From positions 86,675 to 150,674 of the IMG/VR virus record IMGVR_UViG_3300031521_000014: DNA of 64,000 nucleotides, one strand, 5' to 3'. The notes beneath the pieces were generated by a model. It searched no databases, was not told where the DNA came from, and saw only the letters and a list, made by a program, of their open reading frames with translations. Numbering within the stretch: the stretch's first letter is position 1; each line of letters starts with the position of its first letter. Made by a program: the position numbers and the translations under genes. This document shows, piece by piece, positions 37,953-51,786 of the stretch. This DNA is from a virus.

Positions 37953-38330
37953 ATGAATGATAAACAGTATCTTCATATACCACATCCAGAGATGTTAACA
38001 ATGTATTTGACATCTAACGGTATCATGATGCATACAGAGTTTACTAAAGTATTTTACGAAGAAGTACTTCATCTTGGTCCATCACGTATTTATGACACTG
38101 TTGGAGATGACTTTAGAGCTCTTCTAGAAGATAAGACTTATAGGTTAGCCCTGCAGAAAACTCCCTTAGGTTTGGTTGAGTGTGAAAAAGTTATCAAGAC
38201 TACTTTGGATGTACTACTACAATATATCCCTATAAGTCGTATAACCGATTATATTCATATCATCGACATTAAAGATACGCTCATTAATCTTGAGCTTGAA
38301 ACTATTAATCTTGAATTAGAAAAAACATAG
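37953..38330 (+). CDS. Unknown protein (125 aa), array gene 7
   Basis: Helical throughout, with 'MMHTEFTKVFYEEVLHLG' and an Ile/Leu/Glu-rich end ('NLELETINLELEKT') that looks like two copies of a short repeat and may form a coiled coil. AAGGAG lies six bases before the ATG. Function unknown. Confidence 0.78.
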   Translation: MNDKQYLHIPHPEMLTMYLTSNGIMMHTEFTKVFYEEVLHLGPSRIYDTVGDDFRALLEDKTYRLALQKTPLGLVECEKVIKTTLDVLLQYIPISRITDYIHIIDIKDTLINLELETINLELEKT

Positions 38331-38339
38331 GAGTGACAC

Positions 38340-38744
38340 GTGGCTGAAGCAAAAACTTTCGAGTTAGGTAAGAGTTATGATTTTGAAACCCTAGCTCCCA
38401 TTATATTAAATGCTAGTTATAAAAACGTCAGAGTTTTACAGATGATGCTTGCAGAGAAGGCTATAACTGAAGGTGATGTTGTCACAACACATGAGGTTTT
38501 AAAAGCGTATATCTCTGGATTACCAAACTCTATAAATGATTGTTCTTTTATACAATTTGTTACTCAAGATGGTGTTGAGTTTATTCTTGCTAAAGAATAT
38601 ATCAATCCTTACAGTATCGTACAAGTTACTAAAACAAATCTTGTGTTAACTGCCGTTAGTGTAACCTCTACGGATATCGCTAACGTCTTAAATGTCGTAA
38701 AAGAACTCGGTATTAGTTATACCTATACTACAGTAACAGAGTAG
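38340..38744 (+). CDS. Unknown protein (134 aa), array gene 8
   Basis: GTG start with ATAGGAG six bases upstream. Begins 'FELGKSYDFETLAPIILNAS', then a helical middle and a strand-rich C-terminus ending 'YTYTTVTE'. The terminator hairpin begins inside its last codons. No known family. Confidence 0.78.
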   Translation: MAEAKTFELGKSYDFETLAPIILNASYKNVRVLQMMLAEKAITEGDVVTTHEVLKAYISGLPNSINDCSFIQFVTQDGVEFILAKEYINPYSIVQVTKTNLVLTAVSVTSTDIANVLNVVKELGISYTYTTVTE

Positions 38745-38769
38745 ATCCTTTAAGGATCTACTCTGTTAC
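38733..38769 (+). terminator. Intrinsic terminator overlapping the gene end
   Basis: Perfect 18-bp arms (38733-38750 with 38752-38769); the stop codon and the last codons of array gene 8 lie in the left arm. ATTTT follows. Confidence 0.88.
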
Positions 38770-38843
38770 AATTTTCCTCACAGCTTTCTTTTTTGATTTA
38801 GGCACTAGTATGAAAATATGAGTTAAAACACAAGGGGAAATAT

Positions 38844-41042
38844 ATGGATTCTGAAGTAACAGATATTAATAATCTATATAATGAAAAGTATGATCCGTAT
38901 ATATTTAAACGTGCCAATACGGCTTATGATATTCATCTTTCACCTGTAAGTGAGTATTTTAAACAAAGTACCTCTTATATTAGTAAGATGACAGGTATGT
39001 CAGATGAGCTAGCTAATAAATGGGTTAAAAAAGCTTTAAAAACATTTAAATTAAAAAATCCAGAAGTAACCTATAATGAGAAACAAGAAAATGGTGATAT
39101 GGAAGTTAGTAGTTGTAAACTTACAGATTATATTAAAAATGTTTTAGCTTCAGGAGATGTTGTCGTACCCTCTTTTACAACATACATGCATCCTAGCAAA
39201 GAGAAAAGTCTACACGCTGACTTCTTGTCTATCAACATTGCTGCACGTAAATCTGATAAGAAGATGTCTCATAAGTTTGAACAAGCTTCAGAATCTGAAA
39301 CAGCAACTCCTTCTGAAAAAGCTACTGCTAAAGATAAAGCATTATACTATGAGGTTATGCAGAAAACTCGTAAGGTTGCAAACAACTCATTATCAGGAGC
39401 ATATGCTAGTAAATCATCTATCTTATTCAATCCATCAGCGCACTATACCTTAACCAGTATGACACGTTGTGTCGCTAGTATTGGTAATGCCATTACTGAA
39501 TCTATGGTAGCAGGTAATAAGATGTTTAAAACACCCCAGGTAGTTTTAAATTATTTGGTTGCTATTGTAAGTAATATTAGTAAAGCTAAGGTTAACTATG
39601 CTTTACACAAATATAACTTACATGTTCCTACGCCAGAAGAGATTCTTAAAAGTATTAAACTAAGTTCTGATAGGTATTGGCTTAACGCTGAGACAGATCA
39701 AGAGGTACTTGATTATTTAAATAAACTTGATGATGCTGAAAGAGCTGCTGTGCTCTATACTAACGATATGTGGAATATGCGTAACTATAATGAAGATGTT
39801 GTGCGTATCCTAATAAGGCGAATGATTAAACGTGTTGAAAAAGGTTCCGTTAACCAACTTGATGATTTATACCATTCACCTGAAGGTGTTACAACTACAG
39901 CTCACTTTATTTGTGCTAATGAAATCAAAGGTAAGAATATAGAATACGATAAGATGGTTGGATCAGAATTATTAGAAACATTAGCCTCTACAACACGTAA
40001 TATTTCTACGTGGTTGATATATTATAAACCTTTAATAGAAGCTTTCTTTACAACAGATATTTTACCATTGGATATTACCTATATTAGAGAGATGCTGCGT
40101 GATGTTATCGTGTTATCAGATACTGATAGTACATGTGGCTCTTACGATGAATGGGTACGTTGGTATTGTGGTGAGGATAACTTTGAAACGGTAGGGTCGT
40201 CTGTTGCGGCATGTGTTATGATGTTTAATACACAAGCTATGGATCATAACATTAAACAGTTTGCACGTAATATGAATATTGATCCTGATAGGGTAGAACT
40301 TCTTAAGATGAAAAATGAATTCTATTGGCCAGTGTTTATTACGGCTAATAAGAATAAACATTATTTTGCTATGACCGCTGTTAAAGAAGGTAATGTTTTT
40401 GCTAAACCGAAACTAGAACGTAAAGGCGTCCATCTTATTGCTTCTGCTATTGATCAAGATCTTGTTAAAGTAAGTGAAGAGATGATGATAGAGGTCTCTA
40501 ATAAGATTATTAAAAGAGAAGGTATTAATCTTTTTAGTTATGTTAAAAGAATAGCAGATATAGAAAGAGAGATTATACGTAAAATAGATAGCGGCGCTGT
40601 TAGTATGTATAAGCTTGAAAAAGTTAAGAATAAAGATAGCTACAAGAACGATGAAGACAAATCTCCTTATATGCATCACATTGTATGGCGAGAGGTCTTT
40701 GCTGCCAAATATGGGTCAGCAGGTGATCCTATGTACATGGTTGTTAAAATACCTTTAAAAATAAAAGGTAAGAATGAATTGAAAGCATTTATGGAAAGTA
40801 TCAAAGATACTGATATACGTGAACGTTGGTTGAAACTACTGGATGATTATGATAAAGATAGTATTGGTACTTTTAAACCTCCTGTTATGATTGTGAATAC
40901 ACGTGGTATTCCTGAAGAAGTCAAAGCGGTTATTGATATTAAACGTATTGTTTTTGATAACTGTACCGTATTCTATAACATCCTAGAGTCATTAGGCTTT
41001 TATAGAAAACCTAAGATGATGATTTGTGAGATGGGTTACTAG
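38844..41042 (+). CDS. Family-B DNA polymerase, palm/thumb part only (732 aa)
   Basis: Motif B is present as 'QKTRKVANNSLSGAYAS' near residues 173-189 (family pattern K-x3-NSxYG), and motif C as 'VLSDTDST' near residue 424 (YGDTDS). No 3'-5' exonuclease motifs and no motif A (DxxSLYP) can be seen in the first 170 residues, and the length is short for a complete family-B enzyme, so the N-terminal part must be encoded elsewhere. Divergent, split polymerases occur in the phiKZ group. It is first in a unit with a possible baseplate protein and the Gp49-like protein. CAAGGGGAAA precedes the ATG. Confidence 0.82.
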   Translation: MDSEVTDINNLYNEKYDPYIFKRANTAYDIHLSPVSEYFKQSTSYISKMTGMSDELANKWVKKALKTFKLKNPEVTYNEKQENGDMEVSSCKLTDYIKNVLASGDVVVPSFTTYMHPSKEKSLHADFLSINIAARKSDKKMSHKFEQASESETATPSEKATAKDKALYYEVMQKTRKVANNSLSGAYASKSSILFNPSAHYTLTSMTRCVASIGNAITESMVAGNKMFKTPQVVLNYLVAIVSNISKAKVNYALHKYNLHVPTPEEILKSIKLSSDRYWLNAETDQEVLDYLNKLDDAERAAVLYTNDMWNMRNYNEDVVRILIRRMIKRVEKGSVNQLDDLYHSPEGVTTTAHFICANEIKGKNIEYDKMVGSELLETLASTTRNISTWLIYYKPLIEAFFTTDILPLDITYIREMLRDVIVLSDTDSTCGSYDEWVRWYCGEDNFETVGSSVAACVMMFNTQAMDHNIKQFARNMNIDPDRVELLKMKNEFYWPVFITANKNKHYFAMTAVKEGNVFAKPKLERKGVHLIASAIDQDLVKVSEEMMIEVSNKIIKREGINLFSYVKRIADIEREIIRKIDSGAVSMYKLEKVKNKDSYKNDEDKSPYMHHIVWREVFAAKYGSAGDPMYMVVKIPLKIKGKNELKAFMESIKDTDIRERWLKLLDDYDKDSIGTFKPPVMIVNTRGIPEEVKAVIDIKRIVFDNCTVFYNILESLGFYRKPKMMICEMGY

Positions 41043-44566: not shown

Positions 44567-44592
44567 GAGAAGCGGATATCCGCTTCTCTTAC
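44563..44592. terminator. Bidirectional terminator containing both stop codons
   Basis: Perfect 30-base palindrome. The plus TAA (44564-44566) and the minus TAA (44589-44591) lie at mirrored positions in the arms. Confidence 0.92.
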
Positions 44593-47396
44593 CATGATTT
44601 CATCAACTCTTCTAAACCTATTCTTCCGTACTGTATCGTTGGGGGTATCTCTTTATAATCCTCTGTCGATACATTCATATCCGCCTCATTAATAATATCA
44701 ACATCAGATGAGTAACCTGTTATCTTTTCCACTTCATCTTTAAAGAACGCGATAATATCAATATTACGACTGTTAATATTAGGAACTTCTCCTGTATCTA
44801 ATAGTGGTATATAAACATATGTTTGTTTATCTTGACCTCTACGCCACACACGGGCTATCGCTTGATCGTATATGTACATCCTGAATGGGGTATCTAAGAT
44901 GATAACAATATTAGCCGCTACAACAGGAACAGATTCACCTAGTGATTTGTAAGTCGCTATCAATGGGTTAACATTCTCATTCTCTGTAAATAACTTAACG
45001 GTTTGTGTTAAATGTTTAACATTTTCACCGTAGACACTAACAGGACTGTATCCCTCATTTCTTACATTTTTAAGAGCAGCATCACAAACATCTATATAGC
45101 TACTGAAAATAAGTGTTTTCTTTTCGGTAGATTCTATAATCTCTGTGAAATCAAAATGATACGCCATATCCCTATGACATTCAATTCTAGCTTTACCTAT
45201 AACCCCCGCTAACGCTTCACCCTGTACTTTTAAAGAAGGATATTTATAAATAGTTTTAGCCTCTTTAAACAGTTTCTTTTCATCTCCCTGTAAAACAGGA
45301 AGCAAATACTTATTCTCAAAAACATTAGCATCTTTAATCGTTTGCGACATAAACATTAATTGTTTTCGTTTATAGCCATTTACGATATCTCTAATATTCT
45401 TTTCATAAGTATTAAAAAACTTAGGATCCACTTTATTTTTTAATTGTATCGCCTTAGCTTTCTCATAAAGTGACGTATAAAGTTTAGCATAGAGTTCTGC
45501 TTGCTTCTCAAGTTCTTCCATTCTCCTAGTTATAAATATTTTTAAATTAGTAGCTATAACTGGCAATGTGTAATCAACACCATTATCTAGTACCATGGGT
45601 ATATTTCTAACAATAGGTTTTGGCCCAACATTATCTTTAGAAACTCTAACTGAGAAGTCCCCGTACCGCATTCGTAATGTTTCTTTAAAAACATTACCAG
45701 GGTTCCTATATAATGCTAAGAAACGTTTTACAACAGCTCCTCTGAAGCGTAAGTCTAACATACTGATCAATACTGCTAATTCAGCAACACCTGACTTAAT
45801 AGGCGTTCCTGATAGTAATATAATATCTTCTGTATTTATAAGATCTAGTAACTTTAACAAAGCTACTGTTCTATTAGACTTAGCATCTAAGAAGTTATGT
45901 ATTTCGTCTATGATGACAGTAATCTTCTTACCACTTATCTCTGGTAAAATATCAAAAAGTTTCTCTATTGACTCATAGTTACTTAAAATGAATTTTTCAT
46001 TCTTATAACCTGTTTCATTCTTGACATTATAATAAGATTGTGGTTTCTTATAAATCTCTGTTGTCAATCCCTTTATCCAAACATTATCAACAGAGTTATT
46101 AGGAATAATACAGATAGCTACTTCAGTATTAACACATTCTGAAATAGCCAATGCTGTAAATGTATTATGGGTAGTAATGTAATTATCAACAACAAATAAA
46201 TGATCTACATTATCTACTGCTATACAAGTAGCGTAATCAGATTTTGTTTTAACAATACTTTCTATGCCTAATAACATTTTTGTTTTAATAGGCTCAATAG
46301 TATTTATTAAATCCATATGGGCATTTGATGTAAAAAACTTATATGCTTCAGGGTGTTTAAACTTTAATACACAAAGTCTTTTCTTGTTGTTTATCTTTGC
46401 TACTCCGCCAAGACTAAAAATGATAGACTGTAGATCTTTAACAAGAATTTCTGAATATGATGTGAATATGAATTCACCTTCTTCGTTAACCGTGATATTT
46501 GCTTTATCAAAAATACCTTGCAATAAACTCCAGCGTTGTAATACACTACCATTCTTATACTCATTAGGTATATACCAGTCTGTCGTTGCTAAGAAGTAAG
46601 GATCCTCTGGTAATGAAATAGAATCTATTTTCTCTGGGGTAATTAAGTCTATACTGGCTTTATTTCCATTTATAGCTAGGAAATCAATAAGGTCCATTGT
46701 TGACATTATTTCATAATGACCTTGATTAACAAACGTATCCATTTCAGGATATATTTTCCATAAGTGATCACCACAGGATACTATCTCACGACCATCTTCA
46801 AAACGTACAGTATATAAACATACGATACCTTGAGGATGTACCGAAAGTACTTTAGTAGGTTTACCGTCATTACCTATAACTGTCTCACCTTTTATAAGAC
46901 TGCCTATTGGCTTCCAACCGCCTGGTACTCTAACAGGTGTATCATCCCTTAAGGCTTTACCTGTACCAGTTCCCATATCAAAAAGTAACCCACGATAATG
47001 AAGTTTACTTTTATTTATCTCATATTTATCAAAAGCAGCCTGCTGATCTTCTAGTATCTTATAATGCATTTTTTCATTAATAACCGATGTATCTAATGGT
47101 TCAACAGTATCATATTTTGATAGCTCTTTTATTTTAACAAGAAAAGCCCTTAAGGCTTTAATATTAACTCCGTACACGGAGTCACTGATAATAACATTCT
47201 CTAGGACATAAATAACTTCTGGAATAAAAAATCCATAGAAGCTAAAACCAATTAGTCCAAACTTAATAAACAGAGCATCTATTTTTTGTATACCTAATTT
47301 ACGTATAGATCTATTCCTAAAATTATTTCCGAAAAAACCTGTTACTGAGTATACATCATTTTTACTGTCATAATTTATCATAACATTATTGAACAT
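44589..47396 (-). CDS. SNF2-like superfamily 2 helicase interrupted by an intein (935 aa; 671 aa after splicing)
   Basis: An ATP-driven DNA translocase or helicase. The P-loop is split: GTGTGK ends at residue 147 and continues with T412 ('TFTALAI') after the intein, giving GTGTGKT when joined. Then come 'VIIDEIHNF' (DEAH-like motif II), 'LLSGTPIKSG' (motif III), and near the C-terminus 'IARVWRRGQDKQTYVY' (motif VI with arginine finger), the typical SNF2/RapA-style order. The N-terminal ~135 residues are a less clear domain. AAAGGAGAGG precedes the ATG. The protein is inactive until the intein is removed, since the ATP-binding loop is broken. Possible roles are transcription or replication support; the exact partner is unknown. 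Confidence 0.88.
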   Translation of the reverse strand: MFNNVMINYDSKNDVYSVTGFFGNNFRNRSIRKLGIQKIDALFIKFGLIGFSFYGFFIPEVIYVLENVIISDSVYGVNIKALRAFLVKIKELSKYDTVEPLDTSVINEKMHYKILEDQQAAFDKYEINKSKLHYRGLLFDMGTGTGKALRDDTPVRVPGGWKPIGSLIKGETVIGNDGKPTKVLSVHPQGIVCLYTVRFEDGREIVSCGDHLWKIYPEMDTFVNQGHYEIMSTMDLIDFLAINGNKASIDLITPEKIDSISLPEDPYFLATTDWYIPNEYKNGSVLQRWSLLQGIFDKANITVNEEGEFIFTSYSEILVKDLQSIIFSLGGVAKINNKKRLCVLKFKHPEAYKFFTSNAHMDLINTIEPIKTKMLLGIESIVKTKSDYATCIAVDNVDHLFVVDNYITTHNTFTALAISECVNTEVAICIIPNNSVDNVWIKGLTTEIYKKPQSYYNVKNETGYKNEKFILSNYESIEKLFDILPEISGKKITVIIDEIHNFLDAKSNRTVALLKLLDLINTEDIILLSGTPIKSGVAELAVLISMLDLRFRGAVVKRFLALYRNPGNVFKETLRMRYGDFSVRVSKDNVGPKPIVRNIPMVLDNGVDYTLPVIATNLKIFITRRMEELEKQAELYAKLYTSLYEKAKAIQLKNKVDPKFFNTYEKNIRDIVNGYKRKQLMFMSQTIKDANVFENKYLLPVLQGDEKKLFKEAKTIYKYPSLKVQGEALAGVIGKARIECHRDMAYHFDFTEIIESTEKKTLIFSSYIDVCDAALKNVRNEGYSPVSVYGENVKHLTQTVKLFTENENVNPLIATYKSLGESVPVVAANIVIILDTPFRMYIYDQAIARVWRRGQDKQTYVYIPLLDTGEVPNINSRNIDIIAFFKDEVEKITGYSSDVDIINEADMNVSTEDYKEIPPTIQYGRIGLEELMKSW
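46164..46955 (-). other. Class 3 intein, 264 aa (helicase residues 148-411)
   Basis: The insert begins 'ALRDDTPVRVPGGW' and ends 'YITTHN', followed by Thr. It has no Cys or Ser at position 1. Instead it shows the class 3 triplet: Trp in block B ('CGDHLW'), Cys in block F ('YATCIAVD') and Thr in block G ('TTHN'). In this class the block F Cys starts splicing. The middle (~intein residues 120-190) keeps a worn LAGLIDADG-like segment ('LLQGIFDKANITVNEEG', then 'DLQSIIFSLGG') but lacks clear catalytic acids in two copies, so the nuclease is probably dead. The insertion point in the GK/T of a P-loop is a favoured intein site. Confidence 0.88.
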
Positions 47397-47490
47397 AAGT
47401 CCTCTCCTTTAACTCTCATTGAAATCGATCTATCTATTATATAAGTATCTTAAAACTGGGGTATAGTTGATAAAACATGAAGGAATACAC

Positions 47491-50400
47491 ATGGTCTTTC
47501 CAGAATACAATAACCTATACCGGGCGGTGGGTACGACACGTTTAGTACACTTTGTAAGCCCTAGAATTATAGACGGCGCGACGTTTAAATTCTGTAAAAA
47601 TCCAATACTTTACTGGTTTACAGTTTCAGATATACCTGTTAAAATAGATAATACTTCTTCTTACTTAAAAGATATTAAGAAAACGTATATCAAAACTATT
47701 TTTGAATATATCGGTGAGGGTACGTTAGGTAACTTTCATAGGACTAATAATGTATCGACATCACAAGCAGTAAGCGAACTCGTTAAAAACGCACCTTACT
47801 TTAAATTCTTATCACCTACAGCAACAGAGTTAACAATGCCTAATACTACTCTAGCGATTGTTAATTATGGCTTATTAAATTCACGCTATCTGTATAGCTC
47901 TAACATACTTAATCCATATTATAAATGGTATAACGCTTTTCAAAAGATGTGTTCACAGCTATCTGATGCTACCTATAAAACAGATAGGCATCGTTTTGTT
48001 ACTATTAATCTTCCTACATCATTGCCAACACGTAATCGTTTGGATATGTTTGCTGAAAAGATATTATCATCACATCTTAAAGAACTCTCTATCTATCCTT
48101 ATTTTACACTAGTAGATATTTGGAGATTCTTAACACCAGAATTAAAACAAACAAGCCTATTGGCAACTGTTCCAGAAAGTGAGTATCCTAATATAGATTT
48201 CATGTTTATAGTAGATACCAAAATAGTTCTCTTAAACTTTGGTATATTAGCAGGTCTTGTAAAAGAATATAATCTACCAACAAAACTTCATGCTGATAGA
48301 GCTACCACTATTCGTAAACTCTTCTATCTGTTTTTACTTAATATTAACAGATTAACAAGTAAGCCTATTGATGAGATTATTAAAGATGGTGATAGTCAGC
48401 CTGATATCGCTATCACTGATAAACTCTTTGAGAAGATAGATACTTTTGGAACAGATGTAAATGCACCTATACCAGTTGTAAACAATCCTGCAGTAGATAT
48501 TAATCTAGAATTAGATAAACATGAGCCTGTTACGCCGGAAGAAGTTATTACAACGAATACTGATCTTCCTGAAGAATTAGTAGATGATTTTGACGAAGGT
48601 ATTGATATCACAGCAGGTGAGTTAAGAGATCTTGCTAGTAGTAGCGATCATGTTGTTTATGATAATAAGGCTGAGATCTATAAAGAAGTAGCGCAGCCAC
48701 AAGTCACCTTAGCAGTTCAAATAGGCGCTTTACAGGATTACGGTGTACTGACTAAATCTGAGGTAAACAAATACAATAACATCCTTATATCTCAAGAGTC
48801 ATTACCTTCTCCTTATCCAGGAGATGTAACGCCGTTAAAAGATATGCTAAATAGTGCTCTAGATGTTTATACACTGCCTGAAGAAGATTTAGCTATTACT
48901 GATAATCCTGTTGTTATTGACAAGAAAACACAAAAAGATGTTATAGGGACTATTAATAAAAACTATATCAAACATCAGCTTAAAAAAGATATTGTACGCT
49001 CCATCTATAAGATGCAAAGTGCGGGTGTTATCATCGATGACTATAAGGTAACTGATTCATCTACTATCCTAGGTGATTATAATCAGCATAGCTTTAGAAT
49101 GATCCCACTAGATGGTAAAGCCTCTACTATTAAAGTAGCTTTTCCTGTTGTCAATGAGGATGGTACAATTCGTTTATCCGGAAACCAATATAGAATGCGG
49201 GCTCAGCGTGCTGATTTTCCGATACGTAAGATAGATGCGACAACAGTATCTCTTTCTAGTAACTATGGTAAACTCTTTATAAGTAAAGCTGCTTATAAGA
49301 AGAATGATATAGGATATTGGTTACGAAATCTTATCATGACAAAGTATGATCTGAATGATGGATTAAGAGATCTTGTTTTAGCAGAAGTTGATAATGAGGA
49401 TTGTAAACAGCCATCACTTTACGGTTATCTATCCCGTTATATTAGATCTTTTAAGTACAACGATATTATCTTCTCATTTGATTATAAACTACGGTACACA
49501 TTATTAGCTAACACTACCGTTGAAGAGATTAAGAAGATTGAGGGCGATAAGTATATACTAATAGGTACAGAGAATGCTGTTCCAGTTTATGTTGATTTTG
49601 ATAATAAACTGTATCATTATGTTGATGGAACTTTTCAAGTGTATTCTTCACTCTATGATGTTATCGGCATTACTAAAGAGGATATGCCGTCAGAGCATAC
49701 TGTTGTTAAAGTATTTAAACGTAGTGTTCCTACGGTATTAATGTTATCTTACTACATGGGTATCACAAACCTTTTAAACATTTTAAAGGTTGAAGTTAGA
49801 TATGTAGACTTTACCAGTCACCCTGGTGTAAAGATAAGAGAGAAGATGCCGGTAGGTGAACATCGCTTTATGTTTAAAGATAAACTAGTCTATGTTAAAA
49901 AAGACTATGGCGATGCAGATCTTATTTTATCAGGTCTTAGTGAACTAGAGTCTTTAACACAACTATTTAACTTTGAGGCTTTTAATAATAAAGAATCTTT
50001 TGAAACTATTTTCATACGTAGCGGGTTTAGTTATATGTATGTTAATGAAGTTAAATTAATGGAGTCTTTATTTGTAGATCCTATTACCGAGACTATATTG
50101 AAAAAGATGGGTGAGCCATTAACTTTTAAAGGGCTATTACTAAGAGCCAATGAAATGCTCGTAGATGATAACTATAAACACAGTAACAATGTTACTGAGA
50201 TGACATTTAAAGGTTATGAGCGTGTACCAGGTATGTTCTATAATGAATTAGTTAAGGCAGTACGCGATCATGAGAACAGAAGTTACTGGACTAAGTCTAG
50301 AGTAGTATTTCCAGAGTATAAAGTTATTGCTAATATAACTGAGGATAGCACTACTGTTATGGTTGATGATACTAATCCTATAGCCTCTTTGAAGCAACGC

Positions 50401-51786
50401 GATGATACGACATACCTTGGCTATGGTGGGAGATCCCGTGAGGGAATGCAAAAGGATACTAGGCCTATTCATATTTCTGAAATAGGTATAACATCTGAAG
50501 CTACTAAAGATAGTGGAGATGTCGGTATTTCTTCTTATTTAACAGCTACTCCTAACCTAACGACTATACGTGGTAACCCTGGTGTAACTGATGTAGCAAA
50601 TGCTTCTTGGGGAGAGTTACTATCTGATACTGCCCTATTGTGTCCATTTTCCATAAATGATGATGCAAAACGTTTAAATTTTGCTGGTATTCAAGCAGCA
50701 CATGTTATTCCTATTATTAATTCTAGGGCTCCGTATGTAAGAACGGGACATGAAGCTATTATCCCTATTAAGGTAAAAGGTAGGTTCGTAACTATTGCAG
50801 AAGATAATGGAGTTGTTAAAAAAGTAACTTCTTCTAGTATGAAAGTTATGTATGAAAAACTAGGTGAAAAAGAGTATCCTATTTATTCATGGACAACCTC
50901 TAAAGAAGAATCCGGCTCATGTTATAGACATGATCTGGTTCCTAATCTTGTTGAAGGTGACGTGTTCGGAAAAGACGATACACTCATTTATGATATTGCT
51001 TTCTTTGAACCTGATATCTTTAATCGTAAACGTGTTGTTTATAAACAAGGTACTATGGTTAAAACAGCATTTATAGATGATCCAGATACATATGAAGATA
51101 GTGGTGGAATTAGTAAACGATTTTGCGAGTCTCTTAAAACAAGACAAACAAAATATACTTCAGAAGTTATTAGTAGTACAGACAATATACATAATCTTGT
51201 AAAACCTGGTGATAGAGTTGAAGCTACAACACCATTATTCAGTATAGCAGATGAGATGCTTAGTAATCTTGGTGATATGGACAAAAGAACTTTAAGTATT
51301 CTTCAAGAGTTAAAAATGAATACGCCTAAATCAAAAATAGCAGGTATCGTAAATAAGGTACACGTATTTTATAACTGTGCTTTAGAAGAACTTAGTCCGA
51401 CACTGTTAGCTTTAGCAACAGAAGCTGATGCTGATTTACTTAAGAGTGCAGGTCATACAGGTAGAGTAAATTCTAGTTATTCTATTGCAGGAGTTCCGTT
51501 ATTACCAAATCAAGTAGAGGTAAAAGTCTATATTGATCTTATTGATAATATGGGTCTTGGTGATAAGGCTATTTTGGCTAATCAACTTAAATTTACTGTT
51601 GGTACTGTTGCCGATTATGAAATGACTACGGAATCAGGTGAGCCTATTGATCTATGGTTTGGTATACGAAGTGTCTCAGCTAGAATTGTTAATAGTGCCT
51701 ATCTTATGGGAACTACAGCTTCTACTTTAGATGCTTTAAAAAACCTTATGGTTAAAACGTATAAAGAACTTAAAGGCTCTAAATAA
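47491..51786 (+). CDS. RNA polymerase beta subunit, probably of the virion enzyme (1431 aa)
   Basis: Forms half of the active site of the phage multisubunit RNA polymerase. Near residue 550 'DGTIRLSGNQYRM' fits the beta N-terminal segment. Near 1068 'LNFAGIQAAHVIPIIN' and 'RTGHEAII' fit the NMQRQAVP ... GTGME region. 'VEGDVFGKDDTLIYD' and 'YEDSGGISKRF' follow as in beta, and 'MGLGDKAILANQLKFTVG' (GDK at 1357-1359) fits GDKMAGRHGNKG; the second conserved Lys is kept, but GNKG is changed. It ends soon after 'IDLWFGIRSVSARI', so the beta C-terminal ~150-200 residues are missing and may be supplied by the gene at 13304. An acidic insert lies near residues 310-385. ATG 47491 has GAAGGA six bases upstream; TTG 47467 is rejected. 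Confidence 0.88.
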   Translation: MVFPEYNNLYRAVGTTRLVHFVSPRIIDGATFKFCKNPILYWFTVSDIPVKIDNTSSYLKDIKKTYIKTIFEYIGEGTLGNFHRTNNVSTSQAVSELVKNAPYFKFLSPTATELTMPNTTLAIVNYGLLNSRYLYSSNILNPYYKWYNAFQKMCSQLSDATYKTDRHRFVTINLPTSLPTRNRLDMFAEKILSSHLKELSIYPYFTLVDIWRFLTPELKQTSLLATVPESEYPNIDFMFIVDTKIVLLNFGILAGLVKEYNLPTKLHADRATTIRKLFYLFLLNINRLTSKPIDEIIKDGDSQPDIAITDKLFEKIDTFGTDVNAPIPVVNNPAVDINLELDKHEPVTPEEVITTNTDLPEELVDDFDEGIDITAGELRDLASSSDHVVYDNKAEIYKEVAQPQVTLAVQIGALQDYGVLTKSEVNKYNNILISQESLPSPYPGDVTPLKDMLNSALDVYTLPEEDLAITDNPVVIDKKTQKDVIGTINKNYIKHQLKKDIVRSIYKMQSAGVIIDDYKVTDSSTILGDYNQHSFRMIPLDGKASTIKVAFPVVNEDGTIRLSGNQYRMRAQRADFPIRKIDATTVSLSSNYGKLFISKAAYKKNDIGYWLRNLIMTKYDLNDGLRDLVLAEVDNEDCKQPSLYGYLSRYIRSFKYNDIIFSFDYKLRYTLLANTTVEEIKKIEGDKYILIGTENAVPVYVDFDNKLYHYVDGTFQVYSSLYDVIGITKEDMPSEHTVVKVFKRSVPTVLMLSYYMGITNLLNILKVEVRYVDFTSHPGVKIREKMPVGEHRFMFKDKLVYVKKDYGDADLILSGLSELESLTQLFNFEAFNNKESFETIFIRSGFSYMYVNEVKLMESLFVDPITETILKKMGEPLTFKGLLLRANEMLVDDNYKHSNNVTEMTFKGYERVPGMFYNELVKAVRDHENRSYWTKSRVVFPEYKVIANITEDSTTVMVDDTNPIASLKQRDDTTYLGYGGRSREGMQKDTRPIHISEIGITSEATKDSGDVGISSYLTATPNLTTIRGNPGVTDVANASWGELLSDTALLCPFSINDDAKRLNFAGIQAAHVIPIINSRAPYVRTGHEAIIPIKVKGRFVTIAEDNGVVKKVTSSSMKVMYEKLGEKEYPIYSWTTSKEESGSCYRHDLVPNLVEGDVFGKDDTLIYDIAFFEPDIFNRKRVVYKQGTMVKTAFIDDPDTYEDSGGISKRFCESLKTRQTKYTSEVISSTDNIHNLVKPGDRVEATTPLFSIADEMLSNLGDMDKRTLSILQELKMNTPKSKIAGIVNKVHVFYNCALEELSPTLLALATEADADLLKSAGHTGRVNSSYSIAGVPLLPNQVEVKVYIDLIDNMGLGDKAILANQLKFTVGTVADYEMTTESGEPIDLWFGIRSVSARIVNSAYLMGTTASTLDALKNLMVKTYKELKGSK

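Follow-up and report, generated by a model that had tools for sequence, protein, structure and literature searches.

Class 3 inteins lack a nucleophile at position 1 and carry Trp at B:12, Cys at F:4, Thr at G:5 and Ser or Thr at +1, with a single known exception of Cys at +1 (PMC3196547, PMC5222942). Replacement of Cys F:4 by Ala blocked all splicing and N-terminal cleavage in three class 3 inteins (PMC5222942). The Snf2 intein of Deinococcus radiodurans is among the class 3 inteins that splice efficiently (PMC3196547). The point between Lys and Thr of P-loops has been described as a "classic" insertion, and a shared ancestor has already been argued for class 3 inteins of the DnaB and the terminase sites (PMC5050341). 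In group 1 jumbo phages, a Swi2/Snf2 helicase is often encoded near RNA polymerase genes (PMC7824862). The partial texts of PMC5259590, PMC5222942, PMC4031507, PMC7824862, PMC7664689, PMC3196547 and PMC5050341 contain no mention of inteins at the SNF2 site of phiKZ-type phages.

The intein analyzed here shares its class and an SNF2-family host with the D. radiodurans intein, which differs in residing in a bacterium and is likened by description, not by sequence or bond (PMC3196547). It shares the insertion between Walker A Lys and Thr with the TerL1-a inteins of mycobacteriophages, where the host is a terminase and the likeness is one of site (PMC5050341). MsmDnaBi1 and MchDnaB1 (6bs8 and 6rix) have a splicing domain within 1.4 to 1.8 Å, 31 to 32% identity and the same signature residues, but they are mini-inteins in a DnaB host and have no endonuclease remnant. 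EL ORF166, PhiPA3 gp233 and SL2 gp135 are homologous phiKZ-type helicases with an intein at the same Lys-Thr bond and with the same signature. Identity over the splicing blocks was 39% for EL, 40% for PhiPA3, 42% for SL2 and 42% for FishSpeaker, and several of the phiKZ-type helicase inteins retain more of the LAGLIDADG endonuclease.

The intein is therefore a new example of a familiar kind, and its novelty had been overstated in an earlier interpretation made from the letters of the DNA (the sequence-only reading). That reading expected an SNF2 host to extend the range of class 3 inteins, whereas the D. radiodurans Snf2 intein already belongs to this class (PMC3196547), EL ORF166, PhiPA3 gp233 and others carry an intein at the same bond, and bacterial SNF2 proteins carry class 3-type inteins at MGLGK/T (L109 and L128 with Ala1, L122 with Ser1). 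The SNF2 identity of the bacterial hosts was confirmed by Pfam in all three scanned. The same reading called class 3 inteins uncommon, which is at odds with the 372 phage records matched by the intein in tblastn (the class of each record being unsorted) and the at least 538 related stretches confirmed in a scan of viral contigs.

The window, that is, the whole stretch of 64,000 nucleotides that was analyzed, comprises bases 86675 to 150674 of a 150,674-base virus record. Analysis of the ORF that contains the intein (see the table) revealed a match to phrog_62 (DNA helicase; 1.2e-62), an SNF2-related domain (PF00176; 30.3 bits versus a cut-off of 24.9) and a helicase C domain (PF00271; 40.3 bits versus a cut-off of 23.5). 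Since both domains scored above their cut-offs, the ORF was classified as an SNF2/SF2 helicase, which agrees with the SNF2-like host named in the sequence-only reading. A DEIH motif was read from the translation in domain 1 of the C-extein. The adjoining ORF (47467 to 51786, plus strand) matches phrog_3148, a family of RNA polymerase beta subunits (1063.5 bits), and its position beside the helicase gene fits the remark on group 1 jumbo phages in PMC7824862.

Table. Features of the intein-bearing helicase gene in the window, and two further inteins of the same phage (the slash in sequences marks the insertion point)
Feature	Position	Strand	Basis or remark
Precursor, phiKZ-type SNF2/SF2 helicase with intein, 935 aa	44589..47396	-	phrog_62, PF00176, PF00271
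N-extein, aa 1-147, last residue Walker A Lys	46956..47396	-	
GTGTGK, N-terminal part of Walker A, aa 142-147	46956..46973	-	
Class 3 intein, 264 aa, aa 148-411 of precursor	46164..46955	-	homologue alignment, PDB sequence match, model
Ala1, codon GCC, non-nucleophile at intein position 1	46953..46955	-	
Block B His-Leu-Trp	46758..46766	-	His64 (B:10) and Trp66 (B:12)
His64 (B:10), CAC	46764-46766	-	
Trp66 (B:12), TGG	46758-46760	-	
LAGLIDADG homing endonuclease remnant, intein aa 124-189	46389..46586	-	alignment A1 with full-length relatives
Degenerate second LAGLIDADG motif LLQGIFDKAN	46497..46526	-	LxxGLxDTDG in relatives
Cys244 (F:4), TGT, putative initiating nucleophile	46224..46226	-	role from partial texts of PMC5222942 and PMC4031507
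Block G Thr-His-Asn (G:5, G:6, G:7)	46164..46172	-	
Thr262 (G:5), ACC	46170-46172	-	
Thr+1, ACA, Walker A Thr and putative C-extein nucleophile	46161..46163	-	
C-extein, remaining helicase domain 1 and domain 2	44589..46163	-	
Second class 3 intein	L015:1501-2229; about 22693-23421 of contig		outside window
Third class 3 intein	L022:1489-2361; about 38016-38876 of sister contig		

The same helicase gene was found on a 252,159-base IMG/VR contig, 100% identical across the intein and the C-extein. Scanning of IMG/VR with the intein protein alone gave two confirmed loci, namely, this 252-kb contig of the same phage and L018, whose host protein resembles a terminase as judged by eye. The scan with the C-extein found the 252-kb contig as the sole locus. 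A near-identical empty allele of the helicase gene was found in IMG/VR by neither of these two scans. Four PHROG matches named "terminase large subunit" on the window ORF cover aa 107 to 269, which are mainly the N-terminal part of the intein together with at most 41 residues preceding it.

The intein is seated between the Lys and the Thr of the Walker A motif, with the junctions LFDMGTGTGK/ALRDDTPVRV and YITTHN/TFTALA, so that GTGTGK stands before it and TFTALAIS after it. The reading frame is open on both sides. The coordinates proposed in the sequence-only reading were exact, as translation of the minus strand gave 264 residues, and its exact split of GTGTGK/T was confirmed at both junctions. 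It was also correct in reporting no nucleophile at position 1 and Thr at +1 (Ala1 and Thr+1). The residues of the triplet that it had placed in HLW, TCIAVD and TTHN are present, but the triplet Thr had to be specified as the second Thr of TTHN; His263 (CAT) and Asn264 (AAT) follow it at the end of the intein.

The residues at position 1, B:12, F:4, G:5 and +1 all correspond to those of class 3. A phmmer search against PDB sequences ranked MsmDnaBi1 (6bs8) first with an E-value of 6.4e-10, followed by MchDnaB1 (6rix and 6riy) and then gp41-1. With every signature residue intact and class 3 DnaB inteins as the best PDB sequence matches, the class 3 identification made in the sequence-only reading was upheld. 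In the phmmer alignment, the block B His and Trp and the block F Cys coincide with their counterparts in 6bs8; Trp lies in block B and Cys in block F, not outside these blocks as that reading had considered possible.

Alignment A2, comprising 68 inteins selected out of 148 nonidentical inteins, revealed exactly H64, W66, C244, T262, H263 and N264 as invariant columns. HxW, the block F Cys and THN were present in 148 of 148 inteins, as called with profiles that reward all signature residues (Trp, Cys and THN) at loci found with scan patterns that include VTHN in part but neither Trp nor Cys. No intein was called at the scan locus L155 or in PA1C. The +1 residue was Thr in 135 and Ser in 13 of the 148 inteins, and GK directly preceded the insert in 127. 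Ala1 was counted in about 109, the position 1 counts being approximate because the called N end was off in at least three inteins (L055, L069 and L100).

In eleven of the 148 triplet-bearing inteins, position 1 is Ser (8), Cys (2) or Thr (1) (L047, L052, L054, L070, L075, L081, L093, L097, L101, L122 and L151), a combination that places both possible initiating nucleophiles in one intein. Ser1 together with the class 3 triplet was reportedly described by Tori and Perler in 2011.

Taken by itself, the missing position 1 nucleophile of the window intein would also fit a class 2-like intein, in which Thr+1 attacks directly and the block F Cys is incidental. This is hardly conceivable: the window intein has both Trp B:12 and Thr G:5, which are invariant in 68 of 68 aligned inteins; its best matches by sequence in the PDB are of class 3; and class 2 inteins are described as KlbA orthologues with Ser at G:6 (PMC4031507), a position occupied by His in the window intein.

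To the putative class 3 intein, an AlphaFold2 model generated on alignment A2 assigned a pLDDT of 94.8 and a pTM of 0.92. Superposition of the splicing domain of the model (VIA-align) gave a Z score of 20.0 and an rmsd of 1.4 Å over 123 residues with 6bs8_C and a Z score of 19.9 and an rmsd of 1.8 Å over 127 residues with 6rix_B. Only slightly lower were the Prp8 intein (Z 19.4) and the gp41-1 intein (Z 18.4); as these splicing domains score nearly as high, the fold alone is not diagnostic of class, and the assignment of the window intein to class 3 rests on its signature residues, not on its fold. PI-SceI structures ranked first by Foldseek E-value and by Z, since they cover the endonuclease part as well. 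The whole-length match of the model to PI-SceI (1ef0_A; Z 21.2, rmsd 2.8 Å, 255 residues; VIA-align) agrees with an endonuclease remnant at the usual place. The predicted structure of the segment consists of a HINT splicing domain into which a shortened endonuclease domain is inserted.

Alignment A1 revealed that the first LAGLIDADG region, present in PhiPA3, BUCT660, CF8 and FishSpeaker, is deleted in the window intein. In the second motif, the last Asp, which we take to be catalytic, is replaced. Among the five inteins scanned with Pfam (window, PhiPA3, BUCT660, SL2 and EL), PF14528 was found in PhiPA3 (3.9e-10), BUCT660 (3.8e-10) and SL2 (2.6e-6), no LAGLIDADG family was found in EL, and none was matched in the window intein at an E-value of ≤10. 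The two motifs with acidic residues that mark an active LAGLIDADG endonuclease are thus not both retained. Because the first LAGLIDADG half is lost, as is the last Asp of the second motif, the window intein has probably ceased to home by itself, and self-homing appears unlikely from its residues.

Homologous helicases from 13 named phages, selected from 60 listed of 488 matching records, were compared at the insertion site. Nine carry an insert at the same bond (SL2, PA1C, PhiPA3, PDCC-1, phiKT1028, CF8, BUCT660, EL and FishSpeaker), and four have no insert, with GK running gap-free into T (201phi2-1, Noxifer, LucasX and RisingSun); 9:4 is not a frequency, because the 13 were selected and matches covering the intein ranked higher. 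The sequence-only reading had suggested such a comparison with an intein-less homologue and had considered that the segment might be a normal domain in homologues; the four helicases lack the entire segment and are joined exactly where it is seated. These four homologues, with their exact join, ruled out that the segment is a match by chance or an ordinary domain of the helicase.

In PA1C (L002:1360-4514), the annotation divides the SNF2 gene between two ORFs that overlap and differ in frame. The frame changes within the endonuclease region of the intein, and the N and C junctions lie each in a different ORF. A sequencing error, a broken gene or a two-piece gene may underlie this split. PhiPA3, which is related to PA1C, has one uninterrupted helicase ORF.

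The observed basis comprises the exact boundaries, the unbroken frame, the intact signature residues, the HINT fold of the model and the empty sites in homologues. On these grounds, the segment is almost certainly a class 3 intein whose LAGLIDADG endonuclease has decayed, seated at the Walker A Lys-Thr bond of a phiKZ-type jumbo-phage SNF2/SF2 helicase. By analogy with characterized class 3 inteins (PMC5222942, PMC4031507), Cys F:4, aided by His B:10, Trp B:12 and Thr G:5, would attack the Lys-Ala bond and hold the N-extein in thioester linkage. Transfer of the N-extein to the Walker A Thr+1 would follow, cyclization of Asn264 would release the intein, and an acyl shift would join the exteins to GTGTGKT, which would complete Walker A and restore the ATP site. 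The unspliced helicase should be inactive, and the intein may be retained because its imprecise loss would break the P-loop.

A decayed intein that no longer splices and leaves the helicase dead has a precedent in the class 3 pseudogene Arth_1007 of Arthrobacter (PMC3196547), and the endonuclease part of the window intein is indeed degenerate. Such a state is very improbable here, as Arth_1007 lacks Cys F:4 while the window intein keeps every signature residue (PMC3196547), the frame is open on both sides, and the helicase retains its DEIH motif and domain 2. A splicing-competent class 3 intein might also be kept as a regulatory switch, in which oxidation of Cys F:4 holds the helicase off until conditions permit splicing. 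A mycobacterial DnaB intein has been presented as an oxidative stress sensor (PMC6195587, which of two inteins being unspecified in the partial text), H2O2 inhibits N-cleavage of the class 3 MchDnaB1 intein (PMC7664689), and the window intein has kept its splicing residues although its endonuclease is lost. We consider a switch unlikely, because within the window intein itself the equivalent cysteine is the sole feature in its favor, and because 4 of the 13 homologues are intein-less, so that the helicase family needs no switch.

The class 3 intein of the helicase is accompanied by others. A second class 3 intein (243 aa) was found on the same contig in a phrog_2376 ATPase (606 aa), and a third (291 aa) was found on the 252-kb sister contig in a phrog_16 SF2 helicase (804 aa), both at the Walker A Lys-Thr bond. 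The DNA of the three insertion sites agreed in 19, 17 and 13 of 30 bases; there was no control set for these counts, and a shared homing site is therefore not claimed. Within a set of 47 inteins, the window intein was closest by splicing-block identity to L052 (52%), L041 (50%) and the ATPase intein of its own phage (50%), none of which is at an SNF2 site; its best SNF2-site relatives reached 42%.

A tree was calculated from these 47 of the 148 inteins, including the window intein, on 114 splicing-block columns. Its rows were hand-picked from the phage-rich part of a quick tree (minus nine rows), with a few bacterial and other rows added; the quick tree held 147 of the 148 inteins, left out the window intein (identical to L025) and served the choice of rows only. 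No class 1 rows were taken into the intein trees. The group of the window intein received 87/96 support and was not starred, and because of this support and its long branches the exact neighbor of the window intein is not fixed. The EL, PhiPA3, SL2 and similar helicase inteins fell outside this group. The fewest changes of site label on the tree numbered six, a count with no shuffled-label comparison.

AU tests were performed with the 15 nonidentical phiKZ-type SNF2-site inteins, which are all of those collected. A single clade of all 15 was rejected (p-AU 0.00036), as was a single clade of the 14 without the window intein (p 0.0099). A first round on 12 of these 15 rows yielded p values of 0.0404 with the window intein and 0.358 for the 11 without it, so the strong rejection leans on rows L040, L050 and L075, which joined after the first test and were chosen by host homology, not by tree position. 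When the window intein was constrained to pair with the ATPase intein of its own phage, the resulting tree exceeded that of the free search by 4.4 log units; the pair was not rejected (p 0.611) and is not thereby proven.

These results suggest repeated movement of inteins from P-loop to P-loop. If inteins move between Walker A loops, the SNF2 P-loop would have been invaded several times independently. We lean slightly toward the view that, in jumbo phages, class 3 inteins hop from the Walker A loop of one ATPase to that of an unrelated one, with several independent invasions of the SNF2 P-loop, and that the phage with three inteins, counted together with its sister contig, records such hopping. 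Since common ancestry across DnaB and terminase sites is argued in PMC5050341, this movement extends a known idea; it is a modest addition to a known pattern and mildly new. The P-loop inteins of phiKZ-type phages permit comparison of filled with empty sites within one helicase family and of several ATPases within one phage, which opens the route of inteins to nonhomologous P-loops to phylogenetic testing. Compact class 3 inteins with Thr+1 from these phages could also serve protein engineering.

Two further observations concern the annotation of related loci. L110, a phiKZ-type SNF2 helicase with a related intein, is located on the Caballeronia arationis contig NZ_FCOG02000011.1 (143,740 bases), and L075 (IMGVR_UViG_2724679462_000002; 143,740 bases) has the same range and the same intein; the contig filed under the bacterium is therefore probably phage DNA in the assembly. 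In phage records, the product name "DarB-like antirestriction" was found on intein-bearing proteins that are named otherwise in other records of the same phages, i.e., SNF2 helicase (PhiPA3), terminase (Eowyn and PS1) and primase-helicase (YC). The "DarB-like" names probably follow the intein and represent an annotation artifact.
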